Shown piece by piece: positions 14,208 to 25,957 of a stretch of 35,411 bases of DNA. A program made the position numbers and the translations under genes. How positions within the stretch are numbered: position 1 is the stretch's first letter; every line of letters starts with the position of its first letter. Location of the stretch: IMG/VR virus record IMGVR_UViG_3300042564_001225, positions 1 to 35,411 of that record. The stretch is one strand, 5' to 3'. This stretch comes from a virus. The notes beneath the pieces were generated by a model. That model made no database searches. It worked only from the letters and a program-made list of their open reading frames with translations, and was not told the DNA's origin.

Positions 14208-14466
14208 AAACTATCCCATTGTCTTGATTCACTGGGCTGACGCACACGCAGGTGAAAGCGGATGGCAAATCCTAGAGACATACGAAGACGATGGAGAAGT
14301 CATTGTCAAGACGGTCGGGTTCCTTGTACCGGCTGACGAACCAGGTGGCAAGAAAGATCATGTCACCGTGTGGCAGTCATACCACGAAGGCGAAGGAATC
14401 AACCCGTTCCATATCCCTGTCGGCATGATCCGCACCATGAAAACAATTTCAGATATTTCTATTTGA
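14197..14466 (+). CDS. Conserved hypothetical phage protein (89 aa)
   Basis: Starts at ATG 14197, 6 bases after AAGGAG; an in-frame GTG at 14179 has no such site. The sequence is beta-rich, with YPIVLIHWADAHAGESGWQI, VKTVGFLVPADE and HVTVWQSYHEGEGINPFHIP. This I-x-W-x-D-A...GW pattern recurs in small phage proteins of unknown function that I have seen elsewhere. The gene ends at the start of the promoter for the recombination operon. Confidence 0.72.
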   Translation: MENKNYPIVLIHWADAHAGESGWQILETYEDDGEVIVKTVGFLVPADEPGGKKDHVTVWQSYHEGEGINPFHIPVGMIRTMKTISDISI

Positions 14467-14491
14467 CTTTGATACACCCCGCCTGTATGTT
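14463..14491 (+). promoter_or_regulatory. -35/-10 promoter of the recombination operon
   Basis: TTGACT (14463-14468), a 17-base spacer, then TATGTT (14486-14491). This is the best sigma70-type match on the plus strand of the window. It is followed by a short leader with GAAGGGGAG (14512-14520) before the exonuclease ATG. A second weak element TGATACAC lies inside the spacer. Confidence 0.65.
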
Positions 14492-16143: not shown

Positions 16144-16349
16144 TGATTGATTCAAAATCAGTTTGTATCCACCCTTCTCAGTACGAAGACATAGAAGCGA
16201 GGGAACAGTTAGAACGGATCATGCGTTTGGATTTGCCTGCTGGGGCTAAAGAACTTGATATGACTTGGAAATTATTGGTTGCAGCAGATGGATCACCAGG
16301 GAATGAACGCTGGTTGGGCCGTCTTGAATACAAAAAGGACGGTCAGTAA
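16143..16349 (+). CDS. Small hypothetical protein (68 aa)
   Basis: Starts at the ATG overlapping the previous stop (TGATG). Sequence features are an acidic first half (YEDIEAREQLERIMRLD) and a WKLLVAADGSPGNERWLGRL segment. No family recognised. Its place in an unbroken chain of overlapping genes supports reality. Confidence 0.65.
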   Translation: MIDSKSVCIHPSQYEDIEAREQLERIMRLDLPAGAKELDMTWKLLVAADGSPGNERWLGRLEYKKDGQ

Positions 16350-16531
16350 TGGCTAACAAAAGAACTGTTGACCCTGAGGCTTCAGAGGCTTCAGCACACA
16401 TCATTGGTATCAGAGTGACACCATCACAGTTGGAACAGATTGCTTTGCTGTGCCGTCAGCGCGGTGTCAAGCGTTCACAGTTGTTCCGTGACCTGGTGCG
16501 TACCGCTGTTGAAGAAGAACTGGCTAAGTGA
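16349..16531 (+). CDS. Ribbon-helix-helix (CopG/Arc-like) regulator
   Basis: 60 residues. A short beta strand IIGIRVTPSQLEQI (18-31) leads into two helices, LALLCRQRG-like and KRSQLFRDLVRTAVEEELA. That is the RHH DNA-binding fold, which acts as a dimer with the strand in the major groove. It may control the operon it lies in or the leftward operons. It starts by TAATG overlap and ends by TGATG overlap. Confidence 0.8.
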   Translation: MANKRTVDPEASEASAHIIGIRVTPSQLEQIALLCRQRGVKRSQLFRDLVRTAVEEELAK

Positions 16532-17646: not shown

Positions 17647-18127
17647 TGAGTACGAACTTGCCCATGCATCTATGGCTGGATGTCAAAGGCGTATCGCATC
17701 AATACAGAAACAACGGCCACAGTTCTACGGGTCAGAAGACCGAAAGAACTTTTGGCAGATAGACATCATCGGCATGATCGCTGAGTACGCGGTAGCCAAA
17801 GCGTTTAACTTGCATTGGCAACCAGCGACCAACCAAAAACTTTCTGATCTTGAAGGCGACGTTGGTACATACCAGATCCGTTCGACTGAACACATGACCG
17901 GTCATTTGTTTCTTCACCCGAAAGATAAACCTGCCAAGTACATCCTTGCCATTGTCAAGGAGAACAAAGTTTTGTTACGAGGCTGGATTGATTTAGCTGC
18001 TGGTTTAGAAATTGGTGAAATGAAATCCCCTGACACAGCATGGGTTAGGCAGGATCAACTCAACTCTTTCAGTGACTGGGATGACCCGATCTTTTGGTCT
18101 GCCACAGTTCGGGCTAGACTGACCTAA
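17624..18127 (+). CDS. Probable PD-(D/E)XK-like nuclease with variant active site
   Basis: 167 residues. Helix IDIIGMIAEYAVAKAFNLHW (46-65) with E54, then LSDLEGDVGTYQIRSTEH (73-90) with D79 and Q84-x-R86, then strands ILAIVKENKVLLRGWIDL. The order matches PD-(D/E)XK enzymes, where a helix Glu precedes D...(E/Q)xK; here the final Lys is Arg. It might be a nuclease with an altered core or an inactive DNA-binding relative. GTG at 17624 follows GGGGAG (17612-17617) by 6 bases. Confidence 0.55.
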   Translation: MQITIVLDEYELAHASMAGCQRRIASIQKQRPQFYGSEDRKNFWQIDIIGMIAEYAVAKAFNLHWQPATNQKLSDLEGDVGTYQIRSTEHMTGHLFLHPKDKPAKYILAIVKENKVLLRGWIDLAAGLEIGEMKSPDTAWVRQDQLNSFSDWDDPIFWSATVRARLT

Positions 18128-18147
18128 TCCGTTTAACAGTACCCCTT

Positions 18148-18171
18148 AGGAGGACTATGCCCCTTACTTGA
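18148..18171 (+). other. Perfect Shine-Dalgarno followed by a four-residue ORF
   Basis: AGGAGG (18148-18153) precedes ATG CCC CTT ACT TGA at 18157-18171, ending 25 bases before the lysozyme ATG. CCCCTTA is repeated at 18142-18148 and 18160-18166. It could be a leader peptide, a ribosome-standby site or the remnant of a deleted gene. Confidence 0.4.
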
Positions 18172-21469: not shown

Positions 21470-21731
21470 ATGGAGAGACAACGCCGAGTGTCGAGATGTC
21501 CGTGACCCTGCGATCTTCTTCCCCGACATACCATCGGGCGACGTGCGTGGGTTCTACTGGAATAAAGCACGGCAGTTCTGCGATGTCTGCACCGTGAAAG
21601 TTGAGTGTCTCATGTCGGAGCTGCCACACGAAGAACTAACCGGTCGCCGTAACGGGATGTGGGGCGGGCTAACCCCGAAAGAACGAGACGAATATGTCCG
21701 TGTCGCAACGCCCCTAATTTGGCGCAAGTAA
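21462..21731 (+). CDS. WhiB-family transcription factor
   Basis: 89 residues from GTG 21462, preceded by AGAAGGGG. WhiB hallmarks are C10 (NAECRD), then C40-x2-C43-x5-C49 in FCDVCTVKVECL, and the turn NGMWGGLTPKER. In this family the four Cys hold a 4Fe-4S cluster and the protein works with the principal sigma factor. WhiB genes are restricted to actinobacteria and their phages, so this is the strongest single host clue. It is the last gene of the rightward operon, ahead of a hairpin. Confidence 0.9.
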   Translation: MHEWRDNAECRDVRDPAIFFPDIPSGDVRGFYWNKARQFCDVCTVKVECLMSELPHEELTGRRNGMWGGLTPKERDEYVRVATPLIWRK

Positions 21732-23457: not shown

Positions 23458-23639
23458 TGCAACGCCTCCCCGCACTCATCGCAAGTCATGCCCGCGTAGT
23501 CATCGGAGGCAAACACCGGCGCGGGTGCATCCTGGTGGTAGGTGTAAAATTGTGGGGCATGGGCGGGGCAGTAGGCGGAACCTTCAAAAGTCACGCCCAC
23601 TACCTCCCACGCATTGCGGAATAGTCCGTAGTAACTCAT
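23454..23639 (-). CDS. Small Cys-containing protein (61 aa)
   Basis: Contains EGSAYCPAHAPQFYTYHQDA and ends MTCDECGEALQ. One Cys near the middle plus a C-terminal CxxC could bind one zinc. ATGA overlap with the previous gene of the operon. Confidence 0.6.
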   Translation of the reverse strand: MSYYGLFRNAWEVVGVTFEGSAYCPAHAPQFYTYHQDAPAPVFASDDYAGMTCDECGEALQ

Positions 23640-23983
23640 GCCGATACCTCAACCTCATCGACATAGCCGACCCAAACGGCGACCGCACCCGTAGGCGTGG
23701 AACCGATGCGCCAATGTCCCAACCATTCGGCTGCCTCACAGTAACGACGTACCGCGTTCGCGTAGTTCTCGCCCGTGTTGCATGAGTCATCCCACTTCAC
23801 CGTTAGGCGTTGCGGATCGACACCCTGTGAGGGATTGTCCCACCGGCTCACCGTGATTCGACTCCCGCGGTGATTCGTTGGGCCGTGGTACTTGCATTGA
23901 ATTGTGACGCGGTACGATTCCGTTACCGCTACCCGTTGAGCGATGCGCCACGCCTCGCCCGCTTGTGTGTTATCTGTTTCCAT
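23636..23983 (-). CDS. First gene of leftward operon 1, hypothetical (115 aa)
   Basis: Start ATG 23983 is the one served by the GAAGGG ribosome-binding site. The sequence is beta-rich: YRVTIQCKYHGPTNHRGSRI, LTVKWDDSCNTGENYANAVR and AVAVWVGYVDEVEVSA. This resembles small nucleic-acid or protein-binding folds but no family is recognised. Expressed from the promoter at 24082-24111. Confidence 0.6.
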   Translation of the reverse strand: METDNTQAGEAWRIAQRVAVTESYRVTIQCKYHGPTNHRGSRITVSRWDNPSQGVDPQRLTVKWDDSCNTGENYANAVRRYCEAAEWLGHWRIGSTPTGAVAVWVGYVDEVEVSA

Positions 23984-23987
23984 TGTG

Positions 23988-24073
23988 CTAGCCCCTTCGC
24001 TAGTTGTGTGCGCCCCTTGTGGGCGCATCGTGGGCGGGAAGGCGGTGAACCTTCCGAGGGACTTCCCCGCCCG
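23988..24073 (-). promoter_or_regulatory. Structured leader with hairpin-loop ribosome-binding site
   Basis: The mRNA leader between promoter and ATG contains three stems. CTAGC/GCTAG (23988-24003) has GAAGGG in a 6-base loop. TGCGCCC/GGGCGCA (24009-24027) is perfect. A GC-rich stem joins 24032-24041 and 24063-24073. The Shine-Dalgarno thus sits in a loop, similar to the leader at 25121-25136. Confidence 0.5.
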
Positions 24074-24081
24074 ATGTCTTC

Positions 24082-24111
24082 ACAGTAATGCAACCGTGCG
24101 ACATATGTCAA
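24082..24111 (-). promoter_or_regulatory. Leftward promoter 1 with conserved spacer block
   Basis: On the minus strand TTGACA (24106-24111), 18 bases, TACTGT (24082-24087). The spacer holds TGTCGCACGGTT (24092-24103), identical to that of leftward promoter 2. Drives the operon 23983-21793. Confidence 0.72.
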
Positions 24112-24182
24112 GCATTATTTATTCCGCCCCAACGATGAACGCATACCGGCTAGATCTGGCCTTACCTGGTATTTAGCTGCCA

Positions 24183-24386
24183 TTACTTCACCGCCCACGG
24201 GTGACCATCGGGGATGGCGTGAGTGCGGAGCAATGCAACCGCATCGGCAATGGTTCGGAGATAATGCGCCTTTGCATAATCCGACATATCGGGGAGGTGC
24301 ATCGCCTCAAGATCGACCGACAACTCCGACAACACCGTGACCACCTCAACAACGGGGAGCCGTTCGGATTCTGTGAGGTATTCCAT
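24183..24386 (-). CDS. Small acidic hypothetical protein (67 aa)
   Basis: Starts by TAATG overlap. MEYLTESERLPVVEVVTVLS, then AHYLRTIADAVALLRTHAIP. Helical and acidic, no family. It is the last gene of leftward operon 2; about 100 bases separate it from the next leftward promoter. Confidence 0.6.
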   Translation of the reverse strand: MEYLTESERLPVVEVVTVLSELSVDLEAMHLPDMSDYAKAHYLRTIADAVALLRTHAIPDGHPWAVK

Positions 24387-24652
24387 TAGAGAACCTCCGC
24401 AACATTTAGATTCTCGTCAACGATGCTCAACCCGTGGGAGGCGAGGAACTCGGCGACCGCCTCAAGACTAAGTCGGGTGGCGACCTCCGCCCCCTGCCGT
24501 TGCGCCATCGCCCGTGCGATGACATTACGGACGGACTCGGTGAGAATGTCGGAAGGTTGGCACCCCGTGACCATATGGGCGATGACATCGGGAGCTGCCA
24601 CCCCACACTTGAGGCACAACGGTGTGCCGTGTCTGTCTGTTCGTGTCTTCAT
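24386..24652 (-). CDS. Zinc-knuckle protein (88 aa)
   Basis: The start is MKTRTDRHGTPLCLKCGVAA then PDVIAHMVTGCQ, with CxxC plus H and C ligands in the first 35 residues. A helical remainder follows (ARAMAQRQGAEVATRLSLEA). Possibly a metal-stabilised DNA-binding or inhibitor protein. TAATG junctions at both ends. Confidence 0.65.
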   Translation of the reverse strand: MKTRTDRHGTPLCLKCGVAAPDVIAHMVTGCQPSDILTESVRNVIARAMAQRQGAEVATRLSLEAVAEFLASHGLSIVDENLNVAEVL

Positions 24653-24954
24653 TAGTTGCCCCCAACCTTGAAGAATCCAACGACATCGGCAAATGTGCGA
24701 ACACTCTCCACGATGTCCCCGCCGTCATTGTCACGGGTGTAATAACCGAGGGTGACTTCTTCCCATTCTTCGGGGGTGGTTGGGGCTATCGCCTCACCGC
24801 CGACCGTGACCATGTAGTAATTGTCTCCATCGTTGAGGAAATAGGCATCGCAATTTCCGCCCGTCCAACCGTGAGTGAACTCGCACCCCGTGGCGGTGTT
24901 CAAGCGGGAAAGGTTCTCCTCCACCGCTTCCATGTAATCGCTATAGGTGTTCAT
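24652..24954 (-). CDS. Acidic hypothetical protein (100 aa)
   Basis: MNTYSDYMEAVEENLSRLNT, then GWTGGNCDAYFLNDGDNYYM and EEWEEVTLGYYTRDNDGGDI. Strongly acidic, Tyr/Trp-rich and beta-rich. Small acidic early phage proteins often mimic DNA or block host enzymes (known examples exist; none matched here). Ends with VGGN, the same coding end as its upstream neighbour. Confidence 0.62.
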   Translation of the reverse strand: MNTYSDYMEAVEENLSRLNTATGCEFTHGWTGGNCDAYFLNDGDNYYMVTVGGEAIAPTTPEEWEEVTLGYYTRDNDGGDIVESVRTFADVVGFFKVGGN

Positions 24955-25118
24955 TAGTTGCCCCCAAGCCCGAAATATGCCTCGCAGTCACCACACAAGG
25001 TTGCTGTCTTCGCTTGCTCCTCAGTCAAGTCACCATCGGGCATTAAGGCGCAAGCCTCACACCCAACTTCTGCCCACTCCCGCTCAGGTTCATTGAACCA
25101 TTCTCTCGCTGTCTTCAT
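24954..25118 (-). CDS. First gene of leftward operon 2, zinc-binding (54 aa)
   Basis: Start ATG 25118 follows GAAGGGG. MKTAREWFNEPEREWAEVGC continues ACALMPDG, then ATLCGDCEAYFG. C20/C23 and C44/C47 form two CxxC pairs. Longer upstream starts would run through the promoter and a proline-coding G-run, so they are rejected. Confidence 0.65.
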   Translation of the reverse strand: MKTAREWFNEPEREWAEVGCEACALMPDGDLTEEQAKTATLCGDCEAYFGLGGN

Positions 25119-25120
25119 TG

Positions 25121-25136
25121 TTCGCCCCTTCGCAAA
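25121..25136 (-). promoter_or_regulatory. Hairpin-loop ribosome-binding site of leftward operon 2
   Basis: In the mRNA, TTTGC and GCGAA pair (one G-U) around a 6-base GAAGGG loop just before the ATG. The loop sequence and size are the same as in the leader of leftward operon 1. Confidence 0.45.
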
Positions 25137-25162
25137 CTGTGCCGACCGAATTGCCGACATAG

Positions 25163-25193
25163 ACAGTATGGGGTAACCGTGCGACAATTGCAA
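25163..25193 (-). promoter_or_regulatory. Leftward promoter 2 with conserved spacer block
   Basis: On the minus strand TTGCAA (25188-25193) and ATACTGT (25163-25169) with an 18-19 base spacer holding TGTCGCACGGTT (25175-25186). An A8 tract lies upstream (complement of T's at 25219-25226) as a possible UP element. Drives the operon 25118-24183. Confidence 0.68.
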
Positions 25194-25280
25194 GCACCAT
25201 TTGCAAATTCTTTTAGATTTTTTTTCCGCACCACCAACAACGAAGACAAGGCGGAACGACACCCCGACCACTTTGCAGCT

Positions 25281-25297
25281 AACAGTCGGTGACTGTT
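25281..25297. repeat. 17-bp repeat, copy 1 (perfect dyad)
   Basis: AACAGTC-GGT-GACTGTT: a 7-bp perfect inverted repeat with a 3-base centre, a typical operator-like site. Confidence 0.55.
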
Positions 25298-25327
25298 CGG
25301 AACACACGTCGGCTGTTCGCAACGGTC

Positions 25328-25350
25328 GGGGAGGGGGGGGAGGGGGGTGG
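25328..25350 (+). other. G-run cluster with G-quadruplex potential
   Basis: G4-A-G8-A-G6-T-GG on the plus strand. Further G-runs follow at 25391, 25424 and 25448. The longest homopurine tract in the window; it may form a quadruplex or stall polymerases. Confidence 0.6.
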
Positions 25351-25399
25351 CAAGTCTCGCCCATAATGCTAGTTATGTCATTTATGGGGCAGGGGGTGG

Positions 25400-25416
25400 A
25401 ACAGCCGGTGACTGTT
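25400..25416. repeat. 17-bp repeat, copy 2 (imperfect dyad)
   Basis: AACAGCCGGTGACTGTT differs from copy 1 at one base and lies 119 bases away in the same orientation. Confidence 0.55.
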
Positions 25417-25957
25417 GGAGCAACTGGGGGTGTGCCGAGGCGCGTGTGGGGGGAGTACTGTATTACTGCTCACAGATGTTGTCACTCTTTTGTACCAGGT
25501 TGGCTAGGTGTTCGACTGTGTGACTGGGTGTGTTCACCAACCACTTAGAGTGACCGGTTTTCAAAGGCCCATCCGAAGCGTTGCACATTCACAGCGACGT
25601 GATCCGTGTTTCGCTGCGAACAACCGCTGTGCGAAGCACGAGGGCGTTAGACACAACTGGCTGTGTTGAAGACAAGCAAAGAGTAGATGGCTTTCCCCCA
25701 CGGTTTAGAACCACAAGAGTTCAAGGTCGCCGTAGCCAAGTTCTTTTAGCCGACACCTGTAAAGGATGGAATGTTTGGTCGTTCATTCAACGCTGCTTGT
25801 TCCTCTTACGCAACAGGGGATCAGACCATCTGTCTTCATTCTGTCTTGGTTGCAGGGAACATCTACCCTAGTTTCCTAGTGTGAAATGCCCCGCACCTTG
25901 CAACCGGTGTACAGCCTTGCTCGCTCTGACGCTTCCCAGCGTGGGAGTCTTTCTCTG

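Follow-up and report, generated by a model that had tools for sequence, protein, structure and literature searches.

What reads the 12-nucleotide block shared by the two leftward promoters of this phage, and why it should recur in both, is the question that the locus raises. The window, the whole stretch of DNA analysed, is a linear virus record of 35,411 bases from an uncultured, actinobacterial-type phage belonging to a clade of uncultured WhiB-bearing phages. Its leftward genes occupy ~21.8-25.1 kb, between a rightward region encoding recE/recT, a ribbon-helix-helix (RHH) protein and WhiB on one side and the terminase on the other. A terminase search of IMG/VR matched 274 relatives, 80 of which were fetched. 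Among the records listed from a collection of annotated phages (50,697 records), terminase relatives were remote only (<60% identity over <=78% of the query), the best being ~26-32% identical over part of the length. Two leftward proteins used as queries against viral contigs found no relatives, nor did blastn of the leftward region against isolate phages.

The block, TGTCGCACGGTT, is present in exactly two copies, both on the minus strand (24092-24103 and 25175-25186), as the earlier note had reported; simple arithmetic gives an expectation of ~0.004 per 35 kb for a random 12-mer, and allowing up to one mismatch across the whole record returned the same two copies only. Each copy sits between a -35 element and an identical TACTGT -10 in a sigma-A-type promoter on the minus strand. 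In the first promoter, P1, TTGACA (24106-24111) and TACTGT (24082-24087) are separated by a spacer of 18 bp; in the second, P2, TTGCAA (25188-25193) and TACTGT (25163-25168) are separated by 19 bp, so that the block lies in the same place to within 1 bp rather than exactly. TGCTTG, previously taken as an additional shared block, is instead where the two -35 elements begin (TGCTTGACA and TGCTTGCAA). A generic sigma-70 promoter scan of the window picked up neither P1 nor P2, because the scanner wants a closer match and a spacer of 16-18 bp.

We searched relatives for the block. The block together with CAAGCA matched four loci in 2.9 million viral contigs. Loci L004 and L013 represent a sister phage in which both sites lie at matching places and the first genes behind them are different; L003, L005 and L006, which this first scan also returned, lack promoter context and were judged chance matches. 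Loci fetched by terminase showed the same leftward promoter form again with the three central bases changed, and the 12-bp block is therefore not the conserved unit: it is an asymmetric, well-conserved portion of a 15-bp element, AANYGT-NNN-ACRNTT. The left half of this element was defined at 24 sites in the terminase-fetched loci, chosen solely for a -35 with ACGGTT correctly spaced from it, 20 of which carry YGT, with the other four resembling chance matches. In the window the element reads ATATGT-CGC-ACGGTT in P1 (24092-24106, minus strand) and AATTGT-CGC-ACGGTT in P2 (25175-25189, minus strand), each containing the block described in the earlier note.

When the whole viral contig collection was scanned for CTTGACAANYGTYNNACGGTT, 34 loci came back; in 33 of them a promoter is followed by a short leader, a ribosome-binding site of the GAA(A)GGG type and then a start codon. 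These loci encode proteins of the clade except for the short L092, whose contig also carries a terminase match (L014), and the outlier L101. Overall, ~50 non-redundant promoters with the 15-bp element were found in the WhiB-bearing clade, and dozens of relatives carry the element at the corresponding place in the promoter, with different genes behind it. Across 11 near-complete contigs there were 14 leftward element promoters, one rightward and none in shuffled sequence. Strict promoter-linked sites number two in the window and at most three per near-complete contig; a strict match is absent from the near-complete relatives G003, G009 and G018, although in G003 the element is present together with a -10 that is less typical. 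These counts leave aside another ~39 dyad matches in which no -35 was recognised; they include conserved coding or orthologous positions, and one of them, upstream of gene 18197, occupies a single orthologous place.

Two other conserved sites were noted on the rightward side. The recE promoter (14463-14491) has a conserved spacer, TTGACN-TTGACACACCCCNNCTG-TANNNT, in the window and the near-complete relatives; it is unlike the leftward element and suggests a second regulator. At ~18113-18165, a conserved TAGACTGACCTAATCCGTTTAACAGTAC...AGGAGG-ACTATG leads into a very short open frame upstream of gene 18197, which reads MPLT-stop here and differs in relatives, where it is equally short.

The placement of the element within promoters is informative about how it might act. 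In loci not fetched by motif, offsets of the site, counted from the start of the -35, cluster at 4-6 (7, 27 and 11 promoters), with a second peak at 15 (13 promoters); most other offsets are rare, with a smaller group at -13/-14. In the first register the element overlaps the 3' end of the -35, and in the second its right half-site falls on the -10 position of a promoter with a 17-bp spacer. The two register centres are 10 bp apart, one helical turn, so the same face of the DNA would be covered. Two registers overlapping either the -35 or the -10 fit the pattern expected from a blocking repressor. The consensus is symmetric, with perfect dyads in nine promoters, but the two sites of the window are weak dyads (3-4 of 6 pairs). 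Half-site covariation beyond column composition was tested and none was found; together with the weak dyads, this means that recognition could be partly asymmetric. Because the covariation pattern fixes GT and AC, the 24 sites chosen by -35 and ACGGTT are the fairer evidence on the core. In our view GT-N3-AC with AA/TT flanks is supported, and recognition of the full dyad is probable.

The genes that these promoters precede are variable. The P2 operon comprises four small genes (24183-25118, minus strand; 24954-25118, 24652-24954, 24386-24652 and 24183-24386), none of which has a homologue in ten near-complete relatives. The first gene of the P1 operon (23636-23983, minus strand) encodes a 115-aa protein of phrog_3199 (unknown function) with a homologue in only two of the ten. 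Core genes, in contrast, are common to nearly all relatives, and the putative operator therefore fronts an accessory zone. Conservation of the element set against changing genes gives good support to the proposal, already made in the earlier note, that one regulator would control both leftward promoters. Other features of this region include two internal P2-operon genes, which begin in the overlap TAATG and are both preceded by GGGGGCAAC (24652-24672 and 24954-24974); at the gene ending at 24652, GGGGGCAAC forms a small hairpin with a G-rich loop, GGTTG[GGGG]CAACT. A 17-bp direct repeat, AACAGTCGGTGACTGTT, lies upstream of P2 and outside the predicted leftward genes (25281-25297 and 25400-25416, 94% identical).

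We consider it likely that the 15-bp element is a repressor operator within leftward sigma-A-type promoters, serving to silence accessory genes, with an RHH protein as the likeliest repressor. A repressor bound to the element would cover the -35 and spacer, or the -10 in other promoters, and RNA polymerase would be excluded. A single protein could in this way silence a group of accessory genes that change fast and are probably early. Neither a tyrosine nor a serine integrase was found in the phages searched, and we therefore infer early shut-off rather than lysogeny. The evidence is comparative sequence throughout: it shows the element, its positions and promoter context, its recurrence over the clade, the variable genes behind it and the complementary stems, from which repression instead of activation, the timing, the identity of the binder and any function of the hairpins are inferred. 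In the resulting transcripts, a hairpin near the 5' end of the leader may protect the mRNA, and leaders would often add a short hairpin with the GAAGG ribosome-binding sequence in its loop.

The leaders of P1 and P2 are predicted to be structured. The two GAAGGG loops of six bases reported just before the ATG are real, CUAGC[GAAGGG]GCUAG in P1 (23988-24003, minus strand) and GUUUGC[GAAGGG]GCGAAC in P2 (25120-25137, minus strand), with a second stem of 6 bp rather than the 5 bp described. Both hairpins occur in the minimum-energy and centroid folds, and both leaders fold better than dinucleotide shuffles (z = -2.75 for P1 and -2.43 for P2). Close to the predicted 5' end, both transcripts carry a further and stronger hairpin. 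In P2 it is folded from UGUCGGC/GUCGGCA (25140-25159, minus strand), with comparable hairpins in many relatives; in P1 the fold gives a structured leader (24009-24072, minus strand) with two strong hairpins (24032-24072 and 24009-24027). The P1 leader measures ~100 nt and holds two or three strong hairpins, and comparable leaders occur in L011 and L013. A search of 23600-25500 against Rfam, which included the P1 leader, returned nothing. Among 51 non-redundant first-register promoters of the clade, leaders are mostly 25-60 nt or ~100 nt; these 51 leaders have a mean z of -1.5 against shuffles, 34 of them falling below -1, and often a hairpin close to the predicted 5' end.

Hairpins that enclose the ribosome-binding site extend well beyond the two operons. 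On the minus strand we collected 120 distinct GAAGGG or GAAAGGG sites lying ahead of open frames and permuted them by exchanging upstream arms between genes: in 30 the loop is enclosed by a stem of 4 bp or more, compared with 5.5 by permutation (maximum 12 in 500), although permutation on related sequences overstates independence somewhat, near duplicates having been removed. Among 27 sites of the CC-GAAGG-GG subset, 17 also form both of the following two pairs, compared with 4.4 by permutation, and 0 of 2,000 permutations reached 17. The GC-GAAGGG-GC form found in the window has four distinct members only. Stem sequences differ between genes, and only GAAGG is constant. Judged from these counts, the hairpins are a clade-wide property and not a signature of two operons, and the earlier idea of a paired translational switch at P1 and P2 gives way to Shine-Dalgarno-in-loop hairpins at many leftward genes of the clade. 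They might be no more than a by-product of preferred sequences near GAAGG sites, with no role of their own, since the stems are short (~4 bp), thermodynamically weak and missing at many genes of the same phages; indeed, pairing ends after ~4 pairs, which makes the hairpins weak. Exchange of arms abolishes most of the pairing, however (30 versus 5.5, and 17 versus 4.4 of 27), so the two arms of a given gene are matched to each other, and we regard the by-product explanation as possible but doubtful. It is somewhat less likely again that an RNA-binding protein or nuclease, of phage or host, reads the GAAGG loop as a general translational switch alongside a single RHH repressor.

We next considered which protein might bind the element. 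The RHH (CopG-type) protein, of 60 aa (16349-16531, plus strand), lies just downstream of recE/recT in the rightward direction and matches PF01402 (E = 1.2e-5; 25.5 bits against a cut-off of 20.5). Of 22 contigs that carry the element or are related to it, 20 encode a homologue, and the two exceptions are records of ~20 kb; as RHH is a core gene, this co-occurrence is weak evidence for a role as binder. The N-terminal arm MANKRTVDP and R22 are invariant among 11 homologues, with overall identity down to 53%. In a structure model (mean pLDDT 77) the monomer shows the two helices of an RHH protein but no assigned strand, and a fold search retrieved mainly RHH proteins (MazE, CopG, NikR, AmrZ and Arc among them) at weak E-values, as is to be expected with 60 residues; phmmer against the PDB gave no credible relative. 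Tentatively, we put the RHH protein forward as the best phage-encoded candidate. The earlier note had named both it and WhiB as possible binders: both are conserved alongside the element, and WhiB fits the site less well, since a near-symmetric, polymerase-blocking site in two registers suits an RHH repressor better.

Alternatively, a transcription factor of the host could recognise the operator, such as a FadR-type GntR repressor, and would tie the accessory genes to host physiology. FadR-type GntR operators have GT-N3-AC spacing with purine/pyrimidine flanks, and the core found here, present at 20 of 24 unbiased sites, is alike; the outer flanks differ in being AA/TT. No GntR protein (PF00392) was found in any of 21 phage contigs, so such a regulator would be the host's. 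However, when the full promoter form was sought in 84,980 bacterial and archaeal genomes, only four unrelated matches turned up, with the qualification that the pattern included the phage promoter context and that the host may lie outside the set, and a host binder need not be a GntR protein at all. We judge this explanation, and a host factor as binder, unlikely, although it is the strongest competitor to a phage-encoded repressor.

Still less likely is that the element is a promoter feature for an activator or a WhiB-sigma complex rather than a repressor operator. WhiB proteins act via sigma-A region 4 beside the -35, and the WhiB-family domain (21471-21689, plus strand; PF02467) scores above cut-off in 21 of 21 contigs. 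Yet the site overlaps the -10 in 13 promoters, which is unsuited to an activator at -35; the promoters are already near consensus at -35 with spacers of 17-18 bp; and the rightward recE promoter, with its different conserved spacer, lacks the element. WhiB itself is a poor prospect as binder. Finally, recent duplication of P1 and P2, whose identity would then carry no regulatory meaning, would explain the shared 12-mer, TGCTTG and TACTGT but is largely refuted, as leaders and genes look unrelated outside these motifs and diverged relatives keep GT-N3-AC while the central bases change.

Repression by a small RHH protein encoded with its sites would have good precedent in P22 Arc/Mnt, CopG, MazE and MatP. 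Short near-palindromic operators inside promoters are typical of Arc-type RHH repressors, and by analogy the element most likely works through Arc/CopG-type repression; the operator sequence is not known to resemble that of any other RHH repressor, and the pairing of RHH protein and operator is a candidate one. Among actinophages, the nearest parallels found are the stoperators of Cluster A and the SAS/ESAS of Cluster K, and each fails in a defining feature. As with the Cluster A mycobacteriophage repressor (L5, TipsytheTRex), a short repeated element is oriented with transcription and one regulator is proposed to serve several phage promoters. Stoperators are asymmetric 13-mers at >20 sites, also in short intergenic spaces, bound by a repressor of the HTH type that acts as a monomer (PMC9283540). 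The element described here is instead a near-symmetric, promoter-linked 15-mer with ~1-3 strict sites per phage, and HTH_3 (PF01381) was found in 0 of 21 contigs. A stoperator reading, with many sites outside promoters, is ruled out because strict promoter-linked sites are few and leftward. The Cluster K SAS/ESAS is a repeated element of unknown function at the ribosome-binding site of many phage genes; its sequence is conserved, and about half of the copies have an inverted repeat, 17 bp, upstream of the Shine-Dalgarno sequence (PMC3203893). In the present clade conservation is limited to the GAAGG loop, and the stem varies yet pairs; no SAS-like conserved 13-bp sequence was found at the Shine-Dalgarno sites, where stems differ between genes.

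Taken together, the element defines a putative regulon in a large uncultured phage clade that has only remote annotated relatives, and names one repressor candidate, the RHH protein. CTTGACAANYGTYNNACGGTT provides a sequence handle on the accessory genes of this clade, which may include anti-defence genes. As a start signal, ribosome-binding hairpins whose stems vary yet remain complementary would be unusual, being conserved in structure and shared over many genes.
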